A stretch of 50,382 nt of DNA from Candidatus Lutacidiplasma silvani (GTDB lineage Archaea; Thermoplasmatota; Thermoplasmata; Lutacidiplasmatales; UBA184): assembly GCA_022750295.1 (NCBI GenBank), contig JAKIVZ010000017.1, positions 1 through 50,382 on the forward strand, in the 5' to 3' direction. The translations under genes and the position numbers were made by a program. The notes beneath the pieces are model-generated. The model worked only from the letters and a program-made list of their open reading frames with translations. It ran no database searches and was not told the origin of the DNA. Every line of letters starts with the position of its first letter. Position 1 is the first letter of the stretch. Shown piece after piece: positions 33,328-50,314 of this stretch.

Positions 33328-36300
33328 CTACGGCGACTTGGGCGGGGTTTCCGCGGTGGTTGCCGTGGCGGCCGTCGTCCCGGTCGTCGCCGGGGCGGCC
33401 GGGTCGGTCGGTCCGCGGCGCATGAGGATCGCGGCGGCGACGATCACGATGACGACGACGACGATCGCGATCCACAGGAGAGGGTTCTGGTCGAGCGGGG
33501 TCCCGCTCGAGGTACCGGGCGTGCTTCCGCTCGGATTGACCCGGACGCTCGTCGACCCGCCGAGGGTCTTCCCGTCGAGGGTCGCGTTCGCGTAGACGGT
33601 CGCGTTCCCGGCGTGAGTCGTCGTGAGCGTGGTCGTCGATCCGGAGGTCGTGGAGAGGCTCCCGACCGGCCCGGCAATCGCCCACAAGACGGTACCCCCG
33701 GTCGGGCACGGAGCGGGCGAACACGCCAGGGTGGCCGTGAACGTCTCCGTGGTCCCCACGGTCACGGCGGGCGCGCTCGGCGTTACCGAGACTCCGACGA
33801 GGACCGGGGTGGCCGTCTCGACCGAGACGTTGATGGCCGCCGCGGCGATCGCGACCCCGCTCAGGGTCCCGGTGACGTTGACCCAGCCGCTCTCGTTCGT
33901 CGTCCCCGCGGTGAAGTTCGTGGACGCACCGGTCGCGGACCCGAACGTGCCGAGGGTCGAAGGAGCCACGGTCCATGCGAAGGTGGTCCCGGTGGGGCAC
34001 GCGAGGCTCGCCGAACACCCGGGCGTGGCGAACAGGTCCGTGGTCGCCCCGGCGCCGGTGGTCAACGACAGGGGAGAGACCGTTACCGACGTCAGAATCG
34101 GGAGGACGATCGCGATGCTCGACATCGCGGTGGCGTTCCGGCCGCCCAGCATGGCCGTGACGGAAACGACCTCCGTCCCGACGACCCCGGCCGAGGATCG
34201 GAACGTCGTCCCGGATCCGGTCGTGGGGGCGACCGACCCGAGCGACGGGGTGGCGGCGCTCCAGAGGAACGTCGCGCCCGCCGGGCACGGGAGGCCGCCG
34301 GTGCAGCCGACGGTCCCCTCGAGGGCCGCCGATTGGCCGGCGTACAGCTGGCTGGGGGCGTTGTCGATGGTGGCCCCGGTGAGCGCGGGCACGACCGAGA
34401 TCGGAACGGTGGGGCTGACGACCGACGTGCCGTTCAGCGTCGCGTTCACGGTGAGGTTGGTGGTCCCGAAGACAGCGGCTCCGGCCGCGAACGTCACCGT
34501 GGTTCCGTTCGTGGCGTTCAGCGTGCCGAGCGAGGAGTTCGAGAGCGACCAGACGAACGTGGTGCCGGCGGGGCACGTCGTGTTCCCGATGCACCGTACC
34601 GTCGCGTTGAACTCGGCCGCCCCGCCGGGGGAGAGCACGTCGCTCGCCGGCGCGATCGACGCCGCGACCAGCGGACTCGGAGCGGGGACGGTCCCGAGGG
34701 CGTAGAGGGTCCCCGGTCCGGTCACGGTCACCATCGTCGTGGACAGCGAGGGGGTCGCGACGACGAGCCGGCCCCACGACGCTGTCCAGTCGACGAAGCG
34801 GACGTTCGTGCCGAGCACGACCGAGAGCGAGTAGGTCCCGTTCGCGAGCCAGACCGTTCCGTCCCCGCCGAGGGCGGTCCCGTTGACGGTCCCGACCGGG
34901 TTCCCCACCGGGGAGTTCGCCACGAAGGTCACCGGGTACGTCAGCGGGGCGAACGTGGCGTTCAAGGTCGCCGCCGTCGGGCCGACGATCGTGACCAGCC
35001 AGACCCACGGGGACCACGGCTGGGTCGTCGGCGTGGTCCCCTGGACCAGCGACGCCGTCCCATTCGTCACGGTGAGGCCGCGGACCACATACCCCGGGCT
35101 CGGGGCCTGGACGACGTAGAACGTCCCGTTCGGGACTCCGCCGGTTCCATTGGTGAGGGGCCCGGTGGCGTACCCGAGGTCGACCGATCCGGCGCCCGAA
35201 GGGTAGACCGTGAGATTTCCGAGGACGGTGCCGCCGGCGACGAAGTTGGCCGTGAGTGTCAGGGGGGCGACCCCGGTGGAGTTGAGCACCACGTTGGTGG
35301 TGAATCCGAACGGGTGGCTCAGGTAGGCCGCCGTCCCGTTGCTGACCGACCAGTTCGCGAAGCTCCAGCCCGCGGCCGGCGTCGCGACGAGTCCGAAGAC
35401 CGCCGGGTCGCCGGGCGAGGCGGAGGAGGTGTTCAAAACGAACGTCGTCCCCGAGGGGACCGCGACCGCCGAGACGTTCTCGGGGGCGTTCCACGTGACC
35501 TCGCCGGCGCCCGCGGTCGTGTTGAGCGTCACGTTCTCGAGCGTGTACCCCACGGCCAAGATCTCGGAGAGGCCGCCCTCGAGCGTGACCCACGTGGTCT
35601 GGGAGAAGTTCGTCATCACCGCGAGCCCACCGTATTCCCACGTCTGGAACCGACCGCCGGGGGCCGGCGCGTAGGAGAGGGTGTACGAGCCGGGCAAGAG
35701 CGAAGCGAACGACGCCCCGCCCGAGTAATTCGACCCGTCGAGCCGGACGATGTCGGCGGGGTTCGGCGTATAGATCAGAACCCCGGCGTACGCGACCGCC
35801 TGGGTGTACGTCGCCGTCACGTTCCCCGTCGAATCGACCGGGACGTCGAGGATCGTGTTCGGAAGGGTGGGCGTGGAGAGGCGAAGGGCGCCGCTCGTCT
35901 GCCAGCCGGTGAAGTTGTACCCGGACGGCGGTTCGGCCGCGAGCGAGTAGAGACCGGGGTGGAGGTCGAGCGTCGTGCCGTTCGTGACCTGCCAGGTGTC
36001 CAGGGCGGCGTGAGCGCCGAAGCTGGCGCTCGAGAACCCGGCGACGACCGAGACGTTCGCTTCCCCGTTCGCGGAGAGGAACGTGACGTTCGCATCGTTC
36101 CCCCCGCTCGACCCGATCGCCGCGAAGTTCGCCGTCAGAACGCAGGGCCCCGTGACGTCGACGTTCGTGTACGCGTCCGCCGTCGAAGCGACCGACGCGC
36201 CCCCGCCGACCCCCCAGTCCACGAACTCGTACCCCGCCGCCGGTTGGGCGTCGAGCGAGTAGTTGCCGGCGCTGACGTTGTCGAACACGCGGACCGTGTT

Positions 36301-37902
36301 CGGCACGGTGCGGTCGAGGAAGTCCACGGTGCCGTTTCCGGAGCCGGTCGAATCGACCGTCACGGTCGACGACGACCCGCAGCTCGGGACCGACTCGTTC
36401 GTCGGCAGGTAGTACCCGAGCCCCGCCGCATTCGCGGTCGTCGCCTGCTGGAATTCGAGCGCCTTGCCGAAGTCGTCGGAGGTCGTCGGGTAGTCGGTGG
36501 CGCCGAAGTTGTACGCGTCGGTCGAGCACGAGAAGCTGTACCAGGGATACGCGCAGTAGGCGCTCGTCTCGTGCCCGAGGCAAGTCCACGAGCCGAGCCC
36601 ATCGTCCCCGTCGATGAAACCGAGCCCCCCGAGGTCCTGCGTGAACCCGACCTGGGCGGCGGTCTGGCGGGTCGCCGCGTTGAAGAACGTCGGCGCGTGG
36701 ATCTCCCACGGCTGGAGCGTATCGTTCGCCCACGAACCGGGGTCGTAGCTCGGGCACGGGACCGCTCCGTCGAGGGCGGTCGACGGGGGGGTCCCGGGGC
36801 TGCACCCGTCGTAGCTGTTGTTCTCGGGGATGAGCGGGTTCGCGGCGTGGCCCGTCTCGAACGCGAAGGAGACCGGCGTCTCGCCGCCGGGCGTCCACCA
36901 GAGCGAGTTCGCCCACCCGCTCGTCGAGTACGCCGGGTCGACCGGGTAGTTCCCGGAGGAGTTGTACATCGTGAGGACGGACGACTGACCCGAGGAGTCG
37001 TCCTGGACGGAGATGTTCTCCCCGTACGGGTCCCCGATCCAGCCGTTCATCGTGACGTTGATCGAGTCGCCCTGGGTCATCTGGAAGTACGCCCCGTGTC
37101 CGCCGTGCTGCATCAGCGGCGAGTAGTAGCACGGGGTCTCGAACCCGGTCGACGCCTGGATCTGCCACGCGACCGCCGCTCCGTCCCACACCCCGTCGAC
37201 GGTCCCGGTCGGGTTCGACCAGCTGGAGTCCGGGTAGAATTGGAGCTCGAGGAAGCACTGGTCCATCCACGCGTACGGGTCGGTGAGGGTCATGCCGAAC
37301 CAGATCGCGATGTACAGGCTCGACTGGTTCGCGGTCGGGCTCCGGTCGACCGGGAGCTGGAGGTTCCACGTGACGTTCCCGCCGCTCCCGGGGAGCGCCG
37401 AGTACGGGTCGATCCCGGGCTCGTCGTGCCCGTAGCAGCTTCCGTAGTACTGGGACTGCCCGGCCACCGACGGCCAGACGCCCGCGCACCGGTCGTTGAG
37501 GTCGCTCTGGTCGCCGCCCCACCACCCTCCGGAGCCGGGCTGCGGGAGCTCGGGGGTGGGAGCCCCCGGCGGGGTCGGGCCCCCCCACGACGCCGGATGG
37601 GGGCCGTGAACCTGGAAGGTGACCCGGGGAGTCACCCAGGAGGTCGGGGCGAGCGAAGCGGCCGCGGGGGCGACCGAGGGGGGAACGCCCGCCGTCCCGG
37701 CCGCTGCCGGGGAGTGCCCGCCCGCGACCCCGGGGGCGGCGGGGGTCGACGCGCCGGCCGCGGACGGAAGCGCGGCGTAGCTGCCGATCAAGACCGCGCA
37801 GAGGACGACCACCAGGATCGCGCGCTCCGCACGAGCCACCCATCGATTCGAGGCACCGGACGCGAACGCCGCCATCGGGCCACCGACTCCCTTCCGCTTC
37901 AT
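33328..37902 (-). CDS. giant cell-surface protein with InlB-like and Ig-like repeats
   Basis: A 1,524-residue exported protein. A signal sequence lies near residues 25-50 (AILVVVLCAVLIGSYAALP). Residues about 80-500 form a Trp/Cys/Gly-rich globular domain (WWGGDQSDLNDRC, SCYGHDEPGIDPYS). Residues about 530-1080 hold roughly six InlB/PEGA-like repeats with a F-x-x-W core (FVDWGVGGG, FTGWQTSG, FANWSVSNG, FVDWTASWG). Residues about 1090-1440 hold four Ig-like repeats, each with a Cys pair before CPxG-x-x-x-x-W. A final helix (LWIAIVVVVIVIVAAAILM) anchors it. Many N-x-S/T sequons fit the nearby glycosylation genes. The start is ATG 37902; the frame is open far upstream but overlaps the GNAT gene. 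Confidence 0.85.
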   Translation of the reverse strand: MKRKGVGGPMAAFASGASNRWVARAERAILVVVLCAVLIGSYAALPSAAGASTPAAPGVAGGHSPAAAGTAGVPPSVAPAAASLAPTSWVTPRVTFQVHGPHPASWGGPTPPGAPTPELPQPGSGGWWGGDQSDLNDRCAGVWPSVAGQSQYYGSCYGHDEPGIDPYSALPGSGGNVTWNLQLPVDRSPTANQSSLYIAIWFGMTLTDPYAWMDQCFLELQFYPDSSWSNPTGTVDGVWDGAAVAWQIQASTGFETPCYYSPLMQHGGHGAYFQMTQGDSINVTMNGWIGDPYGENISVQDDSSGQSSVLTMYNSSGNYPVDPAYSTSGWANSLWWTPGGETPVSFAFETGHAANPLIPENNSYDGCSPGTPPSTALDGAVPCPSYDPGSWANDTLQPWEIHAPTFFNAATRQTAAQVGFTQDLGGLGFIDGDDGLGSWTCLGHETSAYCAYPWYSFSCSTDAYNFGATDYPTTSDDFGKALEFQQATTANAAGLGYYLPTNESVPSCGSSSTVTVDSTGSGNGTVDFLDRTVPNTVRVFDNVSAGNYSLDAQPAAGYEFVDWGVGGGASVASTADAYTNVDVTGPCVLTANFAAIGSSGGNDANVTFLSANGEANVSVVAGFSSASFGAHAALDTWQVTNGTTLDLHPGLYSLAAEPPSGYNFTGWQTSGALRLSTPTLPNTILDVPVDSTGNVTATYTQAVAYAGVLIYTPNPADIVRLDGSNYSGGASFASLLPGSYTLSYAPAPGGRFQTWEYGGLAVMTNFSQTTWVTLEGGLSEILAVGYTLENVTLNTTAGAGEVTWNAPENVSAVAVPSGTTFVLNTSSASPGDPAVFGLVATPAAGWSFANWSVSNGTAAYLSHPFGFTTNVVLNSTGVAPLTLTANFVAGGTVLGNLTVYPSGAGSVDLGYATGPLTNGTGGVPNGTFYVVQAPSPGYVVRGLTVTNGTASLVQGTTPTTQPWSPWVWLVTIVGPTAATLNATFAPLTYPVTFVANSPVGNPVGTVNGTALGGDGTVWLANGTYSLSVVLGTNVRFVDWTASWGRLVVATPSLSTTMVTVTGPGTLYALGTVPAPSPLVAASIAPASDVLSPGGAAEFNATVRCIGNTTCPAGTTFVWSLSNSSLGTLNATNGTTVTFAAGAAVFGTTNLTVNATLNGTSVVSPTVPISVVPALTGATIDNAPSQLYAGQSAALEGTVGCTGGLPCPAGATFLWSAATPSLGSVAPTTGSGTTFRSSAGVVGTEVVSVTAMLGGRNATAMSSIAIVLPILTSVTVSPLSLTTGAGATTDLFATPGCSASLACPTGTTFAWTVAPSTLGTFGSATGASTNFTAGTTNESGWVNVTGTLSGVAIAAAAINVSVETATPVLVGVSVTPSAPAVTVGTTETFTATLACSPAPCPTGGTVLWAIAGPVGSLSTTSGSTTTLTTTHAGNATVYANATLDGKTLGGSTSVRVNPSGSTPGTSSGTPLDQNPLLWIAIVVVVIVIVAAAILMRRGPTDPAAPATTGTTAATATTAETPPKSP

Positions 37903-37982
37903 ACCCCTTCGCCCCGCGAGGCTCCCGGACCGAGCCGGACGGAGCCGGGACGCCCACCGGACCCCCGGGTCCGGTCGACGGC

Positions 37983-38981
37983 TCACCCGATCGCCAGGTC
38001 CGCGTTGGTGAGGCCGAGTCGGCCGGCGTGCAGCCACCGGGCCCCGAGCGTCGAGGGGTCGGTGACGAACCCGACGTGCTCGTAGAGCCGCTGGGCGCGC
38101 CGGTTCGCGCACGTGACGACGAGGCGCGGCTCCGGTCGGCCGGCGGCGCGGAGCGCGGCGACCGACGCCCCGAGCAGCCGGGTCGCGTGCCCTCGGCCCC
38201 GTCCCCGGGGGTCGACCATCACCTGCGTGATCAGCGGTCCGCCGTGGTCGTTGACGAGGGTGGCCCCGACGGGCCCCTCGGCGTCCACGGCGAGGAACGA
38301 CGCGAACGCGAGCCACTCGCCGACCGTCGTGCCGAAGAGGGCGGCGGTTCCGGCCCGGGCGTCGGTCATCGGGTCCCGGTGGCGCTGGAACAGGGCGGTG
38401 TCGACCCGGTTGTCGTCGTACGCCCGTACCGTGAGGGCCGCAATCGTCTCGGCGTCGTCGGGGCGCACCGGGCGGAGCCGGACGCCGGGGGCCGATGGCG
38501 CCGACGGGGGCGGCCGGTCGCCGGGGAACCGCATGTCGACCCGGTGCACGGCGACGAACCCGAGGGGTCGGACCGCTTCGACGAACGCGGCCGGGTCGTG
38601 GCCGGCCGGCGGGTCCGGCAGTTCGACGAGCGGGCCGAATCCGTCGGGACGGTCGAGGCGCGTGACGAAGGCGCGGACCGCGGCGGCGTTTCGGAACTCG
38701 TCGGCGAGGTAGGCGATCTCGACGCGGCCGCCGACCTCGCCGGAGGGGAGGCCGAGGGCGATGCCGACCGCGTCGTCCTTCGGGCCGACGAACAGTCGCC
38801 CGACGAACCGTCCGTCGGCGAGCGCCGCGGTCGCCCAGTCGAGCAGCGTGGCGCTCCAGGGGGTCCCCCCGGTCGCCGCGGCCTGGGCCCATTCGGTGAG
38901 CAACCGTCGGGTCTCGGAGGGGGCCTCGGTGGCGTCGACGAGCGCGCCGGCCGCGCGGGGAGCCCCGCCGGCCGTCGTCAC
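37983..38981 (-). CDS. tandem GNAT-domain acetyltransferase
   Basis: A 332-residue protein with two GNAT-like halves. The N-terminal half (to about residue 155) has AIGLPSGEVGG and VEIAYLADEF-type strands but a degenerate acetyl-CoA loop. The C-terminal half has a full motif A (QVMVDPRGRGRGHATRLL) and ANRRAQRLYEHVGF. Two-domain GNATs occur in mycothiol synthase-like and aminoglycoside acetyltransferase-like groups; the substrate is unknown. GTG 38981 overlaps the stop of the DUF457 gene by four bases, showing operon coupling. Confidence 0.82.
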   Translation of the reverse strand: MTTAGGAPRAAGALVDATEAPSETRRLLTEWAQAAATGGTPWSATLLDWATAALADGRFVGRLFVGPKDDAVGIALGLPSGEVGGRVEIAYLADEFRNAAAVRAFVTRLDRPDGFGPLVELPDPPAGHDPAAFVEAVRPLGFVAVHRVDMRFPGDRPPPSAPSAPGVRLRPVRPDDAETIAALTVRAYDDNRVDTALFQRHRDPMTDARAGTAALFGTTVGEWLAFASFLAVDAEGPVGATLVNDHGGPLITQVMVDPRGRGRGHATRLLGASVAALRAAGRPEPRLVVTCANRRAQRLYEHVGFVTDPSTLGARWLHAGRLGLTNADLAIG

Positions 38982-39970
38982 GCGAGCTCCTTCCGCCAGA
39001 GCGGCACCCGCCAGGAGCTCTTCGCGCGGGTCGACCCGTCGGCGGCGAGGTCGACGGTGACGCCCGCCGACCGGCCGAACGCGGAGAATTCGAGGCTGTA
39101 CCAGTGGACCTTCCAGGCGCCGGGTCCGGCGGGGACCGCCTCTCCGAAGCTGTACGTCTGGTCGAGGACGTCGCTCTCCTTCCGGGCGACGCCGTACGTC
39201 CGCGCGAGCGCCTCGTCGGCGTCCTTCGCCGGCCCGGCGACGGGGGGGGCCTCGAGCGGGACGTCGACGACGTACGGCCCCTTCGTGACCCCGCGGCCGA
39301 ACACGTACCGGGCGAACGACGTCCGCATCCGCCCGTCCTGCTTCGATTCGCTCAGGAGGAGCCAGACGAGCGGGTTCGTGGTCGGGACCGGAACGTCGAA
39401 GTCGCCGACGAGCTTCTTTCGACGGCCCACCACGTACCGGGCCGACGCCCGGACGCCGAAGTACGCGACGAAGAACACCATCAGTCCGTAGACGGTGAGC
39501 AGGTACAGCTCGAAGGCGACGTGGCCCCGCTCGACCCCGAGCAGGACGTAGAACGAGGCGACCGACACGACGAGCGTGATGAAGTTGATCGCCCGGTCGG
39601 CGTCGACCTCGAGCGGCTGCTCGGAGAACGGCAGGAACGGGGCGACCGAGTAGTGGGTGAACCCGTCCTCGAGCATGTGGCAGACCCCGCCCGCCATCAT
39701 GACGGCGAAGAAGACGAGCGGGTCGCCGCCGTGGGAGAGCATCGGGGCGATCCAGAGGCCGCCGACGAGCGCGAAGACGGTGACACCGAAGATCGAGTGG
39801 GTGATCCCGTGGTGGCGGAGGATCGGGAACCGCTTCGCGAGCGGAAACACGAGGACGTCGGCGTCGGGGAGGCCGCCGGCGATCGCGCCCGCGATGAGGT
39901 AGTTCGGCTGGTAGCCGACGAGGCCGAAGGTGAGGAGGTACGCCGTCAGGACGTGGGTGAACAGGTCCAC
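38978..39970 (-). CDS. membrane-bound metal-dependent hydrolase-like protein (DUF457/YdjM type)
   Basis: A 330-residue membrane protein. The first 190 residues carry about five helices with the family's metal-ligand pattern: an N-terminal TH (MDLFTHVL), GGLPDADV, HHGITHSIFG and a later HMLEDGFTHYS. The C-terminal 140 residues are soluble and not part of the common family core. E. coli YdjM belongs here, but the reaction is unproven. The start is GTG 39970, 19 bases after the aEF-1beta stop; the end overlaps the GNAT start. Confidence 0.83.
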   Translation of the reverse strand: MDLFTHVLTAYLLTFGLVGYQPNYLIAGAIAGGLPDADVLVFPLAKRFPILRHHGITHSIFGVTVFALVGGLWIAPMLSHGGDPLVFFAVMMAGGVCHMLEDGFTHYSVAPFLPFSEQPLEVDADRAINFITLVVSVASFYVLLGVERGHVAFELYLLTVYGLMVFFVAYFGVRASARYVVGRRKKLVGDFDVPVPTTNPLVWLLLSESKQDGRMRTSFARYVFGRGVTKGPYVVDVPLEAPPVAGPAKDADEALARTYGVARKESDVLDQTYSFGEAVPAGPGAWKVHWYSLEFSAFGRSAGVTVDLAADGSTRAKSSWRVPLWRKELA

Positions 39971-39989
39971 GGTCGGGAGTCCGGGCGCG

Positions 39990-40256
39990 TCAGAGCAGCC
40001 CTTCCTCCATCACCTCGACCGACTCGACGTGCGGCACTTTCGCGAACGCCTGTTCGGTCGCTTCGAGGATCCCGCCGGAGTCGGCCATGACGACGCTGAC
40101 GAGGAGCGCCTTCAACCCGAACGCGATGTCCTTGACCTGCATTCCCCGGACCTGGACTCCCTGGGGCAGGGCGGTCCGGACCCCCTCGGCGACCGCCTTC
40201 ATGTCGGTCTCGACGCCCTGCGGCATCAGGCGGAAGAGCACCGCGACCTGGCCCAT
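39990..40256 (-). CDS. ef1b: translation elongation factor aEF-1beta
   Basis: An 88-residue nucleotide-exchange factor for aEF-1alpha that promotes GDP release after aminoacyl-tRNA delivery. The whole archaeal length is present, starting MGQVAVLFRLMPQGVETDM, with DIAFGLKALLVSVVMAD in the core and the acidic HVESVEVMEEGLL end. ATG 40256 has GGAG a few bases upstream, between the Zn-ribbon stop and the start (8-base gap). The preceding Zn-ribbon gene is the usual archaeal neighbour. A longer open frame upstream belongs to the other gene's region. Confidence 0.93.
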   Translation of the reverse strand: MGQVAVLFRLMPQGVETDMKAVAEGVRTALPQGVQVRGMQVKDIAFGLKALLVSVVMADSGGILEATEQAFAKVPHVESVEVMEEGLL

Positions 40257-40264
40257 GGAGGCTC

Positions 40265-40435
40265 CTAGGGGCCCTGGAAGCCGCAGTTCGGGCACGTGTA
40301 GAGGACCGACTGGTCCCGGCACCGGGCGCACCGTCCCAGGGTGGCGGCGCCGCAGTCCGGGCACGGGAACGTCGTCGTGCCCCGGCCGCCGAGGGCAACC
40401 CCGGAGGAGGTGCAGCGCGTGTCCGGTGCGGTCAT
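40265..40435 (-). CDS. Zn-ribbon protein linked to translation (COG2888/HVO_2753 type)
   Basis: A 56-residue protein with two zinc fingers: Cys25-x2-Cys28 with Cys48-x2-Cys51 (CPDCG, CPNCGFQGP) and Cys8 with Cys36-x2-Cys39 (CARC), the layout of archaeal COG2888 proteins, described as RNA-binding proteins involved in translation. The gene is placed directly before aEF-1beta, as in many archaea. It starts 22 bases after the stop of the surface-protein gene and has no TATA box of its own that I can see, so it may be transcribed from the oligosaccharyltransferase promoter. Confidence 0.87.
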   Translation of the reverse strand: MTAPDTRCTSSGVALGGRGTTTFPCPDCGAATLGRCARCRDQSVLYTCPNCGFQGP

Positions 40436-40457
40436 CGAGGTTTTCCGTCGGTCGGGC

Positions 40458-41294
40458 TCACTTCTTGGTGCGCCCGCGACGAGTCGCGGCGACCTGCGTG
40501 AAATATAAAAAGACCACGCCGACGAAGAGCCCGAACCCGGCGACGTACCAGAGTTCGTAGTTCGGAGCGGGCCCCGCGACGTAGAACGACTGGCTGATCG
40601 AATCGGCCCCCCCGGCGAACGTGACGAGCCCGTGCTCCTCGGCGAGCGAGACGGTGAACGTGTGCCACCCGGGCGAGAGGTTCGGGTCGACGTAATTGAA
40701 GACAACCGGGTAATGGGTCCCCGAGGCGAGGGTCCCGACCGAGATCTGGCCCACCGGAGCGCCGTCGAGGAGGACCGTCAGGTCGAACGGACTCACCGTT
40801 CCCCCGGCGCCGGCGACGACGGTCGCGACGAACCGGTACGGGACGACCACGTTGACGGTGTAGGAGAGGTTCGTCGTCGCGTTCGTCGAATTGAGCTCGG
40901 AGGTGACGAGGACGTAGAGGGTCAGCTGCTGGCTGACGTTGCCGGCCTTCAGCGAGAGCGTGACGGTTCCGTTCGGCATCGAGCCGCCGGAGGGGCTGAA
41001 GAGGACGGTCGAGGTGTTCGTCCCGGCGACGGAGGCGTTGTACGAGTAGACCCCGACCTCGGTCCCATTCGCGGCGACGGCGGGTCCGCCCGTGGCGTTG
41101 ACCACGTACGACGCGTTGCCCGAGAGACCGACGTTGACCGGGCCCGCGATCGAACCGGAGAGGGACCCGTACCCGGCGTTCGTCCCCCGGGCCCCGGGAA
41201 CTCCAAGGGGGCCCGGAACGAGCGACGCCAGCGCCAGGATCGCGACGACCGAGGCGAGCCACGGCAACGACCGGACGGTTCTCCCCCGGCTCAT
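40458..41294 (-). CDS. sequon-rich membrane-anchored surface protein
   Basis: A 278-residue exported protein. The signal peptide is near the start (LPWLASVVAILALASLVPG), and one C-terminal helix (LWYVAGFGLFVGVVFLYFTQV) with an RRGRTKK stop-transfer tail anchors it. The outer part is beta-rich and packed with N-x-S/T sequons (for example GNVSQQL, NSTNATTNLS). ATG 41294 overlaps the stop of the oligosaccharyltransferase gene by four bases. It may be a substrate or accessory of that enzyme. I see no known domain. Confidence 0.8.
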   Translation of the reverse strand: MSRGRTVRSLPWLASVVAILALASLVPGPLGVPGARGTNAGYGSLSGSIAGPVNVGLSGNASYVVNATGGPAVAANGTEVGVYSYNASVAGTNTSTVLFSPSGGSMPNGTVTLSLKAGNVSQQLTLYVLVTSELNSTNATTNLSYTVNVVVPYRFVATVVAGAGGTVSPFDLTVLLDGAPVGQISVGTLASGTHYPVVFNYVDPNLSPGWHTFTVSLAEEHGLVTFAGGADSISQSFYVAGPAPNYELWYVAGFGLFVGVVFLYFTQVAATRRGRTKK

Positions 41295-44200
41295 CGCCGC
41301 GTCCACCTCCGGGTCTTCACCCACCGGTAGACGCCGACGACCACGAGGAAGGCCCCCGCGGGGACGAACACCAGGGCCGGGACGAGCCAGGTGGGGTACG
41401 GGCTCGGCGACCCGAGGTTCGGGCCGGTGACGAGCGCCGTCGAATTGTTGAGCGAGATCGTGAGGGCCGGGACACCGAGGGTGACCGAGCGGGAGAGCCC
41501 ACCGGAGAGGTTGCTGACGGTCGCCGAGACCGTCACCGAGCCGGGCGGGAGCGCCTGCTGGTTCGGGGAGGTGAGGACGACCGAGAAGGTGGTGTTCGAG
41601 TCGGGCGTGAGCTCGTTCGGCTCGGGCGCGATCGACGTGCCCTGGTGGATGGTCGCGTTCCAGCCGAGCGAAGCGAGCGCGGCGGCGTTGGCGATCGTGA
41701 GGGTCGTTCCTTCGACGAGGTTCCCGCTGTTCAGGACGTAGAACGGAAGGGACGCCGTGTACGGGCCGACCGAGTCCCCGATCGAACTCGCGGCGCCGAT
41801 CGAGAGGCCGGCGACCGGAGTGATCGAGATCGTCGGGACCGGTTGGGCGAATCCGACCGGAGCGTGCGTGACCGCGTTCTCCGCCTCGAGCTGGACCGAC
41901 GGCTGGAGCGTGTCGGTGCCGCCGGGGACCACGATCCGGACCTCCCCTCCGACCGAACTGTTCCGGCCAAGGACGCCGAGCTGGACGGTCGCCGGCGAGA
42001 ACGTGAAGTTCCAGTACGAAGGGCTTCCGACGAACGTCAGGTTCTCCGGGACGTTCCCCGTGTTTCGGATCGTGTAGGCGAAGGTCACGGTCGCCCCGGA
42101 CGCCGGAACCGTGGCCGTCGCGGGCGCGATCGTCGTGAAGTCGACCGTCGAGGCGAACTGGTAGCTCAGCGCGAGCCCGGTCGCCGCGTTCCCGTCAAGG
42201 AGGGCGACCATCGACGTCGCCGTGGCATTGACGCTGACCCCGTAGGGGACGCCGGTGGTGGCGCCGGTGACCGCGTACGTCCCGGGCGGCAGGACCAGCG
42301 GGACCGGGGTCGCCACGGGCGTGTTCGCGAGCGTCAGGGTGGTGCCCTCGGGGGAGGTGACGCTCAGGGTCGCAAACTGCGCCTGCGACCCGGAGGGGAC
42401 CACGATCGAGACGGTGTCGGTCCAGCTGAGCCGGAGGTGGACGACGAGCGACGGGATCGCCGCGCCGGTGACGATCACGGACGAGAGGTTGGCGTACGGG
42501 ACGCCGTCGGACGCTGTCGCGTGGAGCGTGTAGTTCCCCGGGACGAGCGACGTCGAGAACAACCCGTTGGTCGTCGTCAGGGACGTCACGTTCGTCGAGG
42601 GGAACGGCCCGACGAGCTGCACGGTGCCGGGGAGCGGGGAGCCGAACCCGGTGGCGACCAGGGTGCCCGCGACGGGGGTCTCGACGGTCGTGGTGACGAA
42701 CGGCACGATGCAGGTGGCGTTCGGACCGGCCCCGACCACGCAGCCGACGAACGAGGGTGCGACCGCGATGGACACGTACTCGGCGCCGGAAGAGTCCGGA
42801 AGCAGGACGGTCGCGTTCGCCTCGATCGGATAGGTCGTGTTCGGAGGGAGCGAGATGGTGAAGTGGCCGCCCGTCGCCGTGACCGGCGTCACGACGCCCG
42901 CCGGTCCCTGAACGTTCAGGACGACGGTGGCGTTGAGCGGGGCGCCGCGCGTTGTGACCAGGGAGCCCGCGACCGGGATCCCGAGGACGGTGAGAGAGAT
43001 CGCGCTCGAGAGGTGGCCGGTCGCGTTGACGACGACGCTCGTCATCGTCGCCGCGGTGCCGTTCCCCTGCGTCGGCGCGGACGCGTAGACCGAGTACGTG
43101 CCGGGGGCGAGGTAGAATCCCTTCTCGAACGTGGCGCCGCCGACCGTCACGTTCATCCTCGACGAGGAGAGCCGGACCGTCACCGACGTGTTCAGGACGT
43201 CGCTGGGGAGGACCAGGTGGCCGACCGCCTTGACCTGGGAGAAAAGGCTCAGGGTGACGTTCGTGCTCGTCGTCCCGAGCGGGATCGTCAGGTTCAGCGA
43301 ATTCGGGGGAAGGAGGAGTCCCGTTCCGCTCGGGGAGTTCGCCCACGCGGTGATCCGGTAGCTTCCCGGGACGATCGAGAACGCGAACGTCGGCCCTCCG
43401 ACCTTCACAGTCGAGACGGCGGGGCTGCCGAGGGCCGTGAAGTTCACGGTGATCGGGGTACCGGTGGGGAGCCCCGTCACCGCGAGATCGAGGGGCACCG
43501 GGGCGAGGGCGAGCGGGATCTCGCCGAGCGTTCCGAGCTCCTGGGCGCTGAACGTGCAGGTGCGATACGGCTCGAAGCCGCTCGCCGTCGCCGTGATGCA
43601 GAACGAACTGCCCGTGGGGACGCGGGCGGGGAGGACGACCGAAACGTTCCCGAACGAGTCGGCCACCACGGTCACGTTGGCGTCCAGCGGCGTTTCGCTG
43701 AAGACGACGCGCGCTCCTCCCGCGGGGTACGGCGCCCCGCCCGACGACGGGGTCGCCACGACCGCGCTCACGAGCTCGCCCGGACCGAGCGTGATCGGAA
43801 GGACGGTGCCGTACGTCAGGTGGACCGTGGTCAGGGCGGCGACGGGAGGAGCGCTCGAATTGGGGACGCTCGCGCTCGCGAGGACCGTGAACTGGCCGGA
43901 GGGGAGCCAGATCGAGTACGACTGCGAGATGTTCGCGAACGTGGAAACCTGATCGCCCGACGAGTCGTAGACGGTGATTTCCGTCGTGGCCGGGCCCGCG
44001 CTCGTCGACGGGGCCCCCGCGACGGTTCCGGAGAGCTGGATCGCCGGACCGACCGCCAGGGACGGCAGGAGGTTCCCGCTCGAGTTCAGATACGCCGTCG
44101 AGAATCCGGCGTACCACGTCGAACCGTTCAGGCCGAAGGCGTACACCGAGTAGTTGCCAAGCGGCAGGGTCGCCCGGACGACGCCGTCCGGGCCGGTGAG

Positions 44201-47200
44201 GACCACGGAGCTGTTCGACTTCGCGGGGGTCGCGCCCGGCGGGGCCGCCGCCGACGCGTTCGCGGGCGCGGGACGGACCGAGGTCGGGACGGAGAGCTCG
44301 GTGAATCGGACCGGGAAGCCGGCGACCGGGTTCCCGTTCAGGAGGACCTGCTCGTCGACGGTCACCAGCGGCACGAGGGTGAGATTGAGGGTCGCGATAC
44401 CGCCGGCGCCCCCGATCGCGAACGTGACGCCGACGAGACCGAGCGACGTCCCCGGCGCCGAGGCCTGGACCGTATAGTTCCCCGGCGGGAGGTTCTGGAC
44501 GGAGAAGTTCCCGCTCGCATCGGCCGTCGCGGTGGCCACCACACCGACCGGCCCGGAGACCGTGATCGCGGTCTCGGGGGCGGCGAATCCGGAGCTGAAG
44601 TCGACGTGACCGTTGAGCGTCCCGGGGGTCAGCCCGATCGTCTCGTTCGCGGTCTTTCCCGGGAGCGCGTAGACGTTCGACTCCGGGAACGTGGCCCCGT
44701 GGTACGCGATGGAGAAGTTGTAGACACCGGGGGGGACGTCGGTCATGTCGAACGCCCCGCTGGCGTCGGTGGTCGCGGTGACGTTCGTGAGCCCCGGACC
44801 GTAGAGCGTCGCGGTCGCGCCCGTCACGATCGGGTCGGTGCTCCGGATGAACGACGAGTTGTTCGCGGTGTTCCAGTAGACGAACCCACTGACCGTCGAC
44901 GGGTGGATGACGATTGGGGTGACCATCGTGGGGGCGTCGAGCGAGAGACCCGTGGCGTTCGGGATCGTCACGTTCAGCGCCGCGAGGGTCGTCGCCCCCG
45001 CCTGGGTCAGGCCGTCGACGGCGCCGGTGGTGACGTTCACCTGGTCGTTGCCGGGGGGAAGGACCACCGAGTACGTCCCGTTCGACCCCGTCACCGTCGT
45101 CATATGGGGGATCCCCCAGCTGTCGTAGACGGTCACGCGGGCGCCGCCGACGGGGGTTCCGTCCGGGAGCTGCACGGTACCGGTCATCGTCTGACCGGGG
45201 TAGTATTCGAGCATCGCCTCGCCGCCGCCGAAGTACGAGCTGTCGGAGGTGTCGGCCGTCCCGTTCTGCGCCTTCGCGAGCGCCTCGGCCTGGGGGAGGT
45301 TGTACGCGGAGAAGCAGCTCGAGCCGTCGGTGGCGTTCGCCTGGGGGCACTCGTAGGCGGTCCGGTAGACCACCTGGAAGTGGGACAGCATCCAACCCGG
45401 CTCGACCGGGTCGGCACCGACCGCGTTGTTCGTCAGCCCGGGGATCCCCTGGCTCGACGAGCCGATGTCGGTCCCGTTGAACCCGAAGTAGACCCGGTAG
45501 ATCATCGACGAATAGAACGCCGGAAGATAGTTGATGTTGTACTGGACCGCCGTCACCCCGGCGGGGAGGTCCGACGGCGAGTAGGTGTTCCCATCGGAGC
45601 CGAGGATCGAGAGCGTATAGTACGCGGTCGGCGCGCCGCCGGCGCCGATCACTCGGTCGGTGAGGTCGGCCGGAGCGTAGAAGATCCCCGTGTTCGAGCC
45701 GCTGAACGGGATCAGCCGAGAGTCGACCATTGCGTACCGGATCGACCACCCGGTGTACGATTGCACGTCGTTGTACAACTGGGCCACCCCGTTCGTGGAG
45801 AGGGTCGTGGAGAGGTAGTACCCCATCGCGTCGTACATCGCATTCTGCCCGTCGAGCTCGCTCGGGTCGACGGGGAGGTATCGCTCGGGGTGGGCGAGGA
45901 CCATCGCGATGTCGTCCGAGGTGTTGACCATCAGGGTGTGGACGGTCGCGACGTTCACGCCGTCGCGGGCGAGAAGGTCGTTGAGGGTCGCGGGGAAGTA
46001 CGGCTGGTGGGTCTTCGCCTGCTCCGCGGAGAGGAGGGTCGTGGCGAGGATCGCAATCGCCTGCGACTCGTTCTGCGAGAGCAGGAAATTCCCGGCCGGG
46101 TCGATCCCGTTCTGGAAATTGTCGGCGACGGTCGGGTGGTCTCCCTCGGCGACCGCCTGGAATCCGTAGTCCCACCAACTGACGAACGCCGGACGTTGCG
46201 GTTCGGGTAACTGCGAATCTTGGGTGGCGAGCCAATTGTACCCGGCCTCGTCGTACTGGTTCGGGGTATCGAGCTCGGTCCCCGCCGCCCCGAGGTAGTA
46301 CGTCGAAGCGTTCGCCGGGGCGACCCGGACCGGGACCGGGAGCGAGTTGTAGATTTGGGTCGAGTACGTCCCCTTGTCGTTGTACGGGATTCCCGCGTCA
46401 ATCGAGTACCAGACGTTCGGGACCAGGATCACGACCACCAGGGCCATGACGAGGATATGCCGCCCCTTGATCGAGCGGCGGAACGCCGCGAACTGACTCC
46501 GCCGGTCGGAGAGGGAAGCGACGTTCCGCCGAAGGGTCGGATACCCCCCGACGTCGAGCGCCCGGACGATCGCCTCGGCGGGGAGGAGGGCGAACCCGGC
46601 CGAACCGATGAAGAAGAACTTCGCCGCCGAGAGCGGCAGGTAGATCGACAGGATCGCGAAGACGATGAACATCACCTGGACGCGCCGGAACCGGTCGCGG
46701 ACGGTCCGCCAGGCGAAAAGGCCGAGGCCCACGAACGCGAGGAAGAACGTGACGACCCCGTACCCGAGGATCAGCGAGTCGATCGACGGGGCCTGCGCCT
46801 CGGCGACCGTCGAGTAGACGAGCGTCTTGACGAAGTACCCCTGCCCCGTGATGATCGCGGTAAAGTCGGCCGGGTCGAACAGGAAGAGCGCGCCGATCGC
46901 GACCGCGGCGGTCCCGAGCAGGACGGGGAGCGAGACCACCCAGGGAGTGTCCCGGAGCAGGAAGAACGGGAGAAGGACGAGGAGCGCCCCGAAGAACACG
47001 AGCGCCGGCTGGTCGAACCAAACGCGGCCGAGCCCTTGGAAGTAGTAGTACGGTACGGCCATCGGGAATCCGATGAGACCGACCAGCCAGGTCAGCGTGT
47101 AGAGGCCGAACGAATCGACCCGCCGCATCCGTTCGAGGATGAGCTGGATCGCGAGGAACACCACGATCGCCGCGACGAGGAACGAATACCCTTGCCACGC

Positions 47201-47917
47201 CAGCATCACGGTGCCGAACGCGACGCCGGTGAACACGGCCCATTTCACGGCCGTTCGTTCGTTCCGGTAGTACGCCCGGAGCGCCGGAAGGAATTGCCGC
47301 GGTTGCCGGTAGTCTTCGACCCACCGCTTGCTGCCGGCCGCCTTGATCGTCCGGAGGTAGGCGTACAGGGCGATGAGGATGAAGAACGTGTAGAACGAGA
47401 GATAATTCGCGTAGCCGAACGTCGAAGAATCGATGCTCGCGACGACGATCGGGTAGAGGAGAGCCGCCATCAGCCCCATCCGCCGGGAGCTGACCTCCTT
47501 CCCGAGGAGGTACACCGGGAAGACGCCGAGCGCGGCCCAGAACGGGGCCTGGAAGTCGAGGAACCACGCGCCGGCGAGCTGGGCGCCCGTGGTCCCGCCC
47601 CCGAAGAGCGGGGCGAAGATGATCCCGAGGATCGCGTTCATCCAGTCGAACAGCGGCTCGCGCGGGTTGACGGCCCCGAACGGATAGTGGAGCGACGCGT
47701 CGAGGCCGAGATTCTGATGATTGAGAATGATGTAGTCGGTGACCCGGTAGTGGTAGAACGAGTCGGAACCGCCCGCGAAGAGGTACTGGGGCCCGTACTG
47801 CTGGAGGAGCGGGACCACGTAGAGCGTGCGGACCAGGAACGAGATCGAGAACGCCCCCAGCAGGATGGCGATGGTCCACCCGTGGCGACGCCACCAACTG
47901 GTTTCGGGCAGTCCCAT
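41291..47917 (-). CDS. aglB: AglB/STT3 oligosaccharyltransferase fused to a giant extracellular repeat region
   Basis: A 2,208-residue membrane protein. Residues 1-900 are an AglB/STT3-type catalytic subunit, which transfers glycan from dolichol phosphate to Asn-x-Ser/Thr. It has 12-13 helices, the first acidic motif GGSDSFYHYR near residue 50, the TIxE-type STVAEAQAP near 372, and WWDYG at 580-584. Known AglBs end soon after their periplasmic domain (about 800-970 residues). Here about 1,300 residues of CarboxypepD_reg/PEGA-like beta-sandwiches follow from GTVQLPDGTPVGGARVTVYD onward (residue 905), then an NEW3-like module (TIRNTGNVPENLTF) and a terminal helix (WLVPALVFVPAGAFLVVVGVY). No stop or frame break separates the parts. 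A TATA box lies at 47964-47972. Confidence 0.9.
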   Translation of the reverse strand: MGLPETSWWRRHGWTIAILLGAFSISFLVRTLYVVPLLQQYGPQYLFAGGSDSFYHYRVTDYIILNHQNLGLDASLHYPFGAVNPREPLFDWMNAILGIIFAPLFGGGTTGAQLAGAWFLDFQAPFWAALGVFPVYLLGKEVSSRRMGLMAALLYPIVVASIDSSTFGYANYLSFYTFFILIALYAYLRTIKAAGSKRWVEDYRQPRQFLPALRAYYRNERTAVKWAVFTGVAFGTVMLAWQGYSFLVAAIVVFLAIQLILERMRRVDSFGLYTLTWLVGLIGFPMAVPYYYFQGLGRVWFDQPALVFFGALLVLLPFFLLRDTPWVVSLPVLLGTAAVAIGALFLFDPADFTAIITGQGYFVKTLVYSTVAEAQAPSIDSLILGYGVVTFFLAFVGLGLFAWRTVRDRFRRVQVMFIVFAILSIYLPLSAAKFFFIGSAGFALLPAEAIVRALDVGGYPTLRRNVASLSDRRSQFAAFRRSIKGRHILVMALVVVILVPNVWYSIDAGIPYNDKGTYSTQIYNSLPVPVRVAPANASTYYLGAAGTELDTPNQYDEAGYNWLATQDSQLPEPQRPAFVSWWDYGFQAVAEGDHPTVADNFQNGIDPAGNFLLSQNESQAIAILATTLLSAEQAKTHQPYFPATLNDLLARDGVNVATVHTLMVNTSDDIAMVLAHPERYLPVDPSELDGQNAMYDAMGYYLSTTLSTNGVAQLYNDVQSYTGWSIRYAMVDSRLIPFSGSNTGIFYAPADLTDRVIGAGGAPTAYYTLSILGSDGNTYSPSDLPAGVTAVQYNINYLPAFYSSMIYRVYFGFNGTDIGSSSQGIPGLTNNAVGADPVEPGWMLSHFQVVYRTAYECPQANATDGSSCFSAYNLPQAEALAKAQNGTADTSDSSYFGGGEAMLEYYPGQTMTGTVQLPDGTPVGGARVTVYDSWGIPHMTTVTGSNGTYSVVLPPGNDQVNVTTGAVDGLTQAGATTLAALNVTIPNATGLSLDAPTMVTPIVIHPSTVSGFVYWNTANNSSFIRSTDPIVTGATATLYGPGLTNVTATTDASGAFDMTDVPPGVYNFSIAYHGATFPESNVYALPGKTANETIGLTPGTLNGHVDFSSGFAAPETAITVSGPVGVVATATADASGNFSVQNLPPGNYTVQASAPGTSLGLVGVTFAIGGAGGIATLNLTLVPLVTVDEQVLLNGNPVAGFPVRFTELSVPTSVRPAPANASAAAPPGATPAKSNSSVVLTGPDGVVRATLPLGNYSVYAFGLNGSTWYAGFSTAYLNSSGNLLPSLAVGPAIQLSGTVAGAPSTSAGPATTEITVYDSSGDQVSTFANISQSYSIWLPSGQFTVLASASVPNSSAPPVAALTTVHLTYGTVLPITLGPGELVSAVVATPSSGGAPYPAGGARVVFSETPLDANVTVVADSFGNVSVVLPARVPTGSSFCITATASGFEPYRTCTFSAQELGTLGEIPLALAPVPLDLAVTGLPTGTPITVNFTALGSPAVSTVKVGGPTFAFSIVPGSYRITAWANSPSGTGLLLPPNSLNLTIPLGTTSTNVTLSLFSQVKAVGHLVLPSDVLNTSVTVRLSSSRMNVTVGGATFEKGFYLAPGTYSVYASAPTQGNGTAATMTSVVVNATGHLSSAISLTVLGIPVAGSLVTTRGAPLNATVVLNVQGPAGVVTPVTATGGHFTISLPPNTTYPIEANATVLLPDSSGAEYVSIAVAPSFVGCVVGAGPNATCIVPFVTTTVETPVAGTLVATGFGSPLPGTVQLVGPFPSTNVTSLTTTNGLFSTSLVPGNYTLHATASDGVPYANLSSVIVTGAAIPSLVVHLRLSWTDTVSIVVPSGSQAQFATLSVTSPEGTTLTLANTPVATPVPLVLPPGTYAVTGATTGVPYGVSVNATATSMVALLDGNAATGLALSYQFASTVDFTTIAPATATVPASGATVTFAYTIRNTGNVPENLTFVGSPSYWNFTFSPATVQLGVLGRNSSVGGEVRIVVPGGTDTLQPSVQLEAENAVTHAPVGFAQPVPTISITPVAGLSIGAASSIGDSVGPYTASLPFYVLNSGNLVEGTTLTIANAAALASLGWNATIHQGTSIAPEPNELTPDSNTTFSVVLTSPNQQALPPGSVTVSATVSNLSGGLSRSVTLGVPALTISLNNSTALVTGPNLGSPSPYPTWLVPALVFVPAGAFLVVVGVYRWVKTRRWTRR

Positions 47918-49378: not shown

Positions 49379-50314
49379 CTACAATCTCGAAGCCGGCTTA
49401 TCATGCTTCACGAACTCCGGGGCGATCCCATTCTCGAACATCTCGTGGACCACGACCGTGAGGTTGTAGGCGATGAGCTTACAGATTACCTCGTTCACCT
49501 GAGCCGTCGGCGTTCGCGACCGGATGTTCTCGCCGAACTTTCGCTTGAGTGCCGAGAAGACGGACTCGACGTTGCTTCGGCGGTGGTAGTTCCGGTCGAA
49601 CTCTTCGCGGTTGGCCTGGAAAAGGTGGAAGGCCTTTCGCCACGCCGACGGAGAGGTATGGTGGCGGCCACGCGAAACGGAGTTCGACTTGAACGGGATG
49701 TAGGGCTGTACGCCGAGGTCGGACGCGAGTTGGTAGCTGTCCATAGAGAGGTACGCCTTGTCTGCAGCAACGATCGACGGATGGAACCCATCCTCGAGGA
49801 CCCCGTGCAGGAGCGGGGCGAACTGTGGGGAGTCACCTGTGTTCGTCTCCGAGACGACGGCACGAATCACGACATGCGTTCGCGTCCCAACCATCGCATG
49901 GACCTTGAGCCACTTCTTCTCACGCTTTTCTTTGTGTTTCTCCTCGCGCCACCCACCGAAGGATGTCGTCTGAATCCCCGTGCTGTCTGGGGCAACCGCT
50001 CCGCCTTCCTCGAGGGCGGCGAGGGGGGCTGCACTGAGCTGGAGAAGTCGGTAGAGGATTGGCGTCACCTCGGGTCGGACGAGGAGATTCGATGCCACCG
50101 CGTAACTCGGAACGCGGTAAAGTAGCCCCCGATCCGCAACGTTCTGATAGACGCCGCACGCTCGTCTCGCGGACATCCCGGAGTAGATTTTCAAAATTGT
50201 GCAGTACAAGTCGTCGCCGACGGGAGTCGGTGCTGGCCCTGGCAAACCGGGGGTTCGCGGAAAGTCTGGAACTTCGGACACCAGATCGCGGAGCAGGGTG
50301 TCAAGAAGTCGCAT
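49379..50314 (-). CDS. IS4/IS5-type DDE transposase
   Basis: A 311-residue DDE transposase. The catalytic acids are Asp110 (VAPDSTGIQ), Asp185 (VAADKAYLS) and Glu250 within the Y-x2-R-x3-E-x6-K signature (YHRRSNVESVFSALKRKFG), as in IS4/IS5 groups. All three are present, so it could be active. TTAATTAA at 50341-50348 lies about 30 bases upstream. No convincing terminal inverted repeats or target duplication could be found, so I annotate only the gene and not an element. Lower GC than the neighbours suggests recent arrival. Confidence 0.88.
   Translation of the reverse strand: MRLLDTLLRDLVSEVPDFPRTPGLPGPAPTPVGDDLYCTILKIYSGMSARRACGVYQNVADRGLLYRVPSYAVASNLLVRPEVTPILYRLLQLSAAPLAALEEGGAVAPDSTGIQTTSFGGWREEKHKEKREKKWLKVHAMVGTRTHVVIRAVVSETNTGDSPQFAPLLHGVLEDGFHPSIVAADKAYLSMDSYQLASDLGVQPYIPFKSNSVSRGRHHTSPSAWRKAFHLFQANREEFDRNYHRRSNVESVFSALKRKFGENIRSRTPTAQVNEVICKLIAYNLTVVVHEMFENGIAPEFVKHDKPASRL

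Follow-up and report, generated by a model that had tools for sequence, protein, structure and literature searches.

A giant oligosaccharyltransferase with a membrane-anchored arm of beta-sandwich domains and an adjacent partner gene in Thermoplasmata

We analyzed a 50,382-nucleotide stretch of DNA from Candidatus Lutacidiplasma silvani (contig JAKIVZ010000017.1), hereafter the window, in which a gene for a giant oligosaccharyltransferase (OST) is followed on the minus strand by a small partner gene (Table 1). The OST frame runs from its ATG to its stop without a break, bearing out the preliminary description of this DNA, which had claimed a single uninterrupted frame. As read from the sequences, the fusion of an AglB-type core to an extended repeat region and a further anchor is real and conserved. 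Close to the end of the window, a transposase-like frame was recognized by eye (49379-50314, minus strand). A search for plasmid relatives gave no match.

Table 1. Features of the giant OST locus (positions in the window; residue numbers of the OST).
Feature	Position	Strand	Description	Basis or conservation
Partner gene	40458..41294	-	278 residues from ATG; signal-like segment, Ig-like and CARDB-like beta domains, membrane helix, basic tail	
Giant oligosaccharyltransferase gene	41291..47917	-	ATG at 47917, stop at 41291; 2,208 residues and stop; one uninterrupted frame	
STT3/AglB core, residues 1-907	45197..47917	-	Membrane helices, then outer WWDYG domain	Profile and fold
Arm, residues 908-2165	41423..45196	-	Beta-sandwich domains: CarboxypepD_reg-like, then other Ig-like; 44 sequons	
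C-terminal membrane helix	41330..41386	-	Residues 2178-2196; model helix 2178-2202	Hydropathy and model
Basic tail	41291..41329	-	Ends KTRRWTRR, then stop	Sequence read
First DXD motif, residues 49-53	47759..47773	-	GGSDS	Kept in 65/65 order rows
Second DXD site, residues 170-173	47399..47410	-	ANYL	Alignment
TIXE motif, residues 370-373	46799..46810	-	TVAE	Alignment
WWDYG motif, residues 581-585	46163..46177	-	WWDYG	Kept in 65/65 order rows

The Pfam profile PF02516 (STT3) matched residues 51-449 with 34.5 bits, passing its cut-off of 24.5, and the AglB core model matched residues 556-624 slightly under its own (23.6 bits, cut-off 27). The best named match was TIGR04154, the archaeosortase A system-associated OST, over residues 17-956 (E 3.6e-67), but its 227.4 bits are half the cut-off of 450 and the arm lies outside the model. 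Residues 1-1200 were modelled by AlphaFold2 with a pLDDT of 89.6 and a pTM of 0.80, and a fold search with this model retrieved Archaeoglobus AglB 7e9s (E 2.8e-27, TM-score 0.68 by target length). Thirteen transmembrane helices characterize the STT3/AglB family; in the window OST, membrane helices were read from hydropathy and from the model. The AglB-like core with WWDYG and a TIxE-type motif, described earlier from the letters alone, is therefore present, with WWDYG starting at 581 and TVAE at 370-373. The window OST has the core fold, the first DXD, the TIXE-type Glu and WWDYG in common with A. fulgidus AglB (7e9s, 3waj, 5gmy) and PF02516, whereas it is about 2.5 times as long, adds the arm, the second anchor and the partner, and reads NYL at the second DXD. 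Six archaeal AglBs of the same family and with the same motifs range from 754 to 1,054 residues in the table of PMC5131992, none of them near 2,200. The unusual length pointed out beforehand holds against a typical AglB, but it is ordinary inside the protein's own phylum, as indicated by the family survey below.

The arm is a stretch of beta-sandwich domains about 1,260 residues long. Pfam profiles matched CarboxypepD_reg to five stretches of it (E 2.1e-25), and no PEGA family was among the 13 Pfam matches listed; from the proposed CarboxypepD_reg/PEGA-like domains, only the former can be retained. With PF02516 in the core and CarboxypepD_reg in the arm, both halves were recognized by profiles, and AlphaFold2 was confident for both as well (1-1200 and 1010-2208). 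The model of residues 1010-2208 (pLDDT 87.8, pTM 0.56) contains 89 strands and one terminal helix, which at about seven strands per domain would amount to roughly 13-15 domains. When the arm was used in a fold search, the matches listed were only generic Ig-like and macroglobulin-like chains with a low TM-score. The first arm domain (about 908-985) is conserved almost like the core, with a mean majority identity of 0.72 at positions 913-960, compared with 0.61-0.86 in the core and 0.37-0.58 over most of the arm, and its residues D932 and H938 are invariant across 70 sequences. The second membrane anchor that had been suggested was found as a hydrophobic segment (2178-2196) ahead of the basic tail, and a C-terminal membrane helix was seen by hydropathy in P0001 and in 34 of 36 long relatives. 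According to the positive-inside rule, the basic tail would face the cytoplasmic side. The arm is held at the membrane by both ends, through the enzyme on one side and the final helix on the other.

Among known proteins, the anatomy of the arm is like that of NOMO, a translocon protein of eukaryotes that combines a series of Ig/transthyretin-like domains with a C-terminal helix. PF23194 matched residues 1501-1545 with an E value of 1e-5 and 26.2 bits, under its cut-off of 27. NOMO is, however, not fused to a transferase, and it was absent among the best 50 fold matches of the arm listed.

To place this architecture among archaea, relatives were surveyed at the level of the order, the class and the phylum. 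Within the order, 100 of 106 genomes contain the core. Eighty named order relatives were fetched, of which 18 run into a contig end and 62 have a complete frame. All 62 complete frames measure 2,190-2,427 codons and carry the same fusion, none of them being represented by two separate proteins, which rules out a frameshift or an assembly join near residue 900 and answers the call for a survey of related genomes made in the preliminary description. One genome of the order (G101) has a TAG within the matched stretch. The nearest named relatives are the MAGs AcS13-54 and AcS1-3, which share 82% of the core, against 62% for UBA184, which PMC9287336 assigns to the order Lutacidiplasmatales, taken here as that of the window. 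Across the class, the core was present in 371 of 399 genomes and frames of 1,840 codons or more in at least 30 of 35 families; for f4, f7, f12, f24 and f34, no frame of that length was among the matches listed, which contig ends may explain. Outside the class but in the same phylum, frames of more than 2,000 codons occur in at least 15 of 29 families, the longest forms (f47 and f55) reaching about 3,200-3,300 codons. Short forms of about 1,000-1,430 codons stood alone in 14 of these 29 families, among the matches listed, suggesting that the arm is dispensable for the enzyme as such. Hence, the long architecture occurs in much of the phylum but not throughout it.

The motifs of the order were read from an alignment of 65 rows, in which one locus is present twice. 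The TIXE site is TVAE in 63 rows and TIAE in two, its Glu being kept in all 65, and the second DXD is NYL in 61 rows and DYQ or DYL in four. Most other families of the class and phylum have DHD at this site; f19, which we take to be the Thermoplasmataceae (including Thermoplasma and Cuniculiplasma), has GR-any-H. The metal ligands of A. fulgidus AglB are Asp47, Asp161 and His163, and Glu360 belongs to TIXE, as given in PMC8342417. Compared with the second DXD of that enzyme, N and L replace D and H (61/65), and the window OST, with ANYL, lacks the canonical form of the metal site. As both metal-binding residues of the second DXD are lost in these rows, activity is not assured, and how an OST works with such an altered site becomes a pointed question for enzymology.

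We then compared N-glycosylation sequons with shuffled sequences. The 44 sequons of the arm exceed the 14.4 expected, a count reached in none of 2,000 shuffles, and reversing the motif gave 15 occurrences in the arm. For the core, six sequons against 3.9 expected were not significant. In the order relatives, arm sequons were above z 1.64 in 62 of 62 (mean 39.5 vs 14.0 expected), and the partner of the window has 11 where 2.7 are expected. The window also encodes a very large exported protein (33328-38892, minus strand; a 1,854-codon frame that contains Flg_new_2 repeats and, at its C-terminus, a helix), the true start of which is probably later than the frame start. Its sequons (47 vs 15.8 expected) are enriched like those of the arm, and since the enrichment is common to another exported protein, the arm appears to be a normal glycosylated surface protein in this organism rather than a special one. 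The possible self-glycosylation raised earlier is strengthened by an arm count about three times the shuffled expectation, but this excess does not single out the arm.

The partner gene begins within the end of the OST gene: in the window, the OST stop and the partner start overlap as ATGA, and GGAGGTGG lies shortly ahead of the partner ATG, inside codons of the conserved basic tail of the OST (41294-41329, minus strand). Because the DNA of this RRW tail holds GGAGGTGG, part of the tail conservation may serve partner translation. A partner was found directly downstream of the OST in 129 of 140 loci (91/102 and 38/38, one locus being counted twice). The 11 loci without it are L062, L165-L168, L171, L172 and L173-L176. 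L062 and L167 end too early for a partner, and L173-L176, the four loci checked from short-AglB families, have none; in L171 and L172, which hold the very long forms of f47 and f55 (3,178-3,197 codons), a 410-codon frame with subtilase-like motifs (by eye) comes next instead. Full-length partner matches at E 5e-26 or better were obtained in 108 of 108 Thermoplasmata genomes and in 4 of 186 others, using a profile built from some of the families searched; weaker matches elsewhere in the phylum mainly cover the CARDB part. A C-terminal helix was predicted in 90 of 91 partners, as was an N-terminal hydrophobic segment. At E 0.1 or better, the CARDB profile matched 38 of 41 members, the strongest match reaching 6.6e-12, and the partner of the window itself scored 15.3, under the cut-off of 22.7. 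The TRAP family (TRAP_beta) was considered as the identity of the partner and rejected, as it matched one of 41 members with an E value of 0.0079, about what chance would give over 41 scans.

Overlap at the stop codon was compared with that of other frames of at least 250 codons in the same loci, excluding L215 (not an OST) and L137 (a duplicate). ATGA was present at the stop of 61 of 138 OST frames and 162 of 925 other frames; counting ATGA, GTGA and TTGA together, the numbers were 96 of 138 and 382 of 925. The overlap was rejected as proof of coupling, since the control frames overlap often too. In many relatives, the OST is followed in the same order by the partner, a zinc-ribbon gene, a gene that we presume from its family to be EF-1-beta-like, and a YdjM-family gene (38978-41294, minus strand, in the window). 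By tblastn over 120 loci, these were found in 81, 67, 67 and 55 loci, respectively.

A different picture was obtained for family f8, which we take to be the gut-associated Methanomethylophilaceae, including Ca. Methanoplasma termitum. WWDYG was intact in none of its 25 rows, and the DXD Asp and the TIXE Glu were both kept in none of the 24 readable rows. Two f8 loci with all motifs are exceptions, L195 (genome G368, complete) and L216 (genome G208, partial), while L161 of f29 is a further case of decayed motifs. The partner adjoins the OST in all 26 decayed loci. The methanogenesis marker mcrA was found in 9 of 10 f8 genomes tested, in 5 of 5 of f22 and f29, and in 0 of 6 of f19. At most one STT3-like frame per genome was detected with PF02516 in 20 f8 genomes; as this profile misses an intact relative (G135), its silence in f8 is weak evidence. 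The median sequon ratio was 1.21 in decayed rows (n = 25) and 2.18 in intact rows (n = 48; Mann-Whitney p 6e-9, kinship uncorrected), leaving out L173-L176 (short), L137 (duplicate of L103), L180 (partial), L215 and L216. Four intact rows have no clear sequon excess (L195, 0.62; L163, 1.07; L199, 1.18; L147, 1.24), and sequon loss was consequently dismissed as a clean marker of catalytic loss, being a trend from which L195, among others, departs. Kinship links these rows, and the catalytic loss amounts to one or two events. Arm and partner kept without catalysis may be read as a scaffold that outlived its transferase. Fewer glycosyltransferases have been reported in host-associated Methanomassiliicoccales (PMC9723798).

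Taken together, we favour a reading in which the arm, with the partner, is an outer scaffold that its own enzyme glycosylates, and we assign to it a probability of roughly 45% from sequence comparison and models. The gene encodes a membrane OST of the STT3/AglB family with a built-in arm, a chain of domains leading from its outer domain back to the membrane, and the enzyme would be made together with a small single-pass partner of two beta domains. It would transfer N-glycans to exported proteins, its own arm and the partner presumably among them, either in cis or between neighbouring copies. Once glycosylated, arm and partner might shield the cell as an outer scaffold at the membrane, and this scaffold could also keep acceptor proteins close to the active site. 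The anchoring at two ends, the conservation together with the partner and the retention without catalysis point to a scaffold more than to a tether or a simple substrate feeder. The preliminary description had the repeats reaching into the S-layer and holding the enzyme there. A chain of so many Ig-size domains could indeed span tens of nanometres, but a free tether is unlikely for an arm with both ends at the membrane, and the architecture occurs in f19, taken to include species without an S-layer (PMC12448462 and PMC5155288); we regard this tether as very improbable.

A somewhat unlikely alternative is that arm and partner are built-in accessory subunits, comparable to the extra subunits of the eukaryotic OST, which bind exported chains and hand them on to the active site and have no role in a coat. 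The near-core conservation of the first arm domain and its invariant D932 and H938, as if packing on the catalytic part, speak for it, as does the adjacent and linked partner gene. It is harder to reconcile with arms and partners that persist where the catalytic residues are gone, or with a partner that has no significant match to a known subunit (TRAP_beta in 1/41). The same persistence would be deceptive if the methanogen OSTs that look dead were active through substitute residues. With at most one STT3-like frame in each of the 20 f8 genomes, N-glycosylation there would need this protein, and the motifs were read in columns of aligned, divergent rows; yet the motifs are absent so uniformly (0/25 and 0/24), and the sequon excess is so low in f8, that we find activity improbable. 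Equally improbable, in our judgement, is a lineage-specific expansion of little consequence, in which the C-terminal beta domains of an ordinary AglB multiplied and drifted. Faster evolution in most of the arm than in the core, an arm length that differs among families and the occurrence of short forms in the phylum are all as expected from drift, but length and final helix are nearly constant in the order and much of the class, and truncation would be expected somewhere if the arm were neutral. The scaffold reading can also be carried further: the self-glycosylated arch with its two anchors, together with the partner, would make up much of the unordered exterior layer of Thermoplasmata, and in the methanogen family the enzyme would be dead and the coat function all that is left. 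We consider this extended form rather unlikely.

In Cuniculiplasma and Oxyplasma, a dense, unordered exterior layer of about 20 nm, likely of glycoprotein, has been described (PMC12448462). The accessible part of that paper reports that S-layer-like genes were not found, leaves the composition of the layer open and does not contain the wording AglB or oligosaccharyl-; an AglB gene is reported in Cuniculiplasma (PMC5155288). Both genera belong to the same class as the window, and the link between their exterior layer and the giant OST is our own inference. No description of a giant OST with arm and partner was found in the accessible text of the open-licence literature searched. New with respect to the earlier observation are the partner gene coupled to the OST, the change in the second DXD and the f8 family without catalytic residues. 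If the scaffold reading is true, a whole archaeal class would have its N-glycosylation enzyme at two to three times the usual size, and there would be a named candidate for the exterior protein layer of about 20 nm of the wall-less Thermoplasmatales, the composition of which is left open in PMC12448462. The giant OST and its partner are a concrete candidate for part of an archaeal cell coat, and f8, in which the catalytic residues were lost yet arm and partner were kept, offers a natural experiment.
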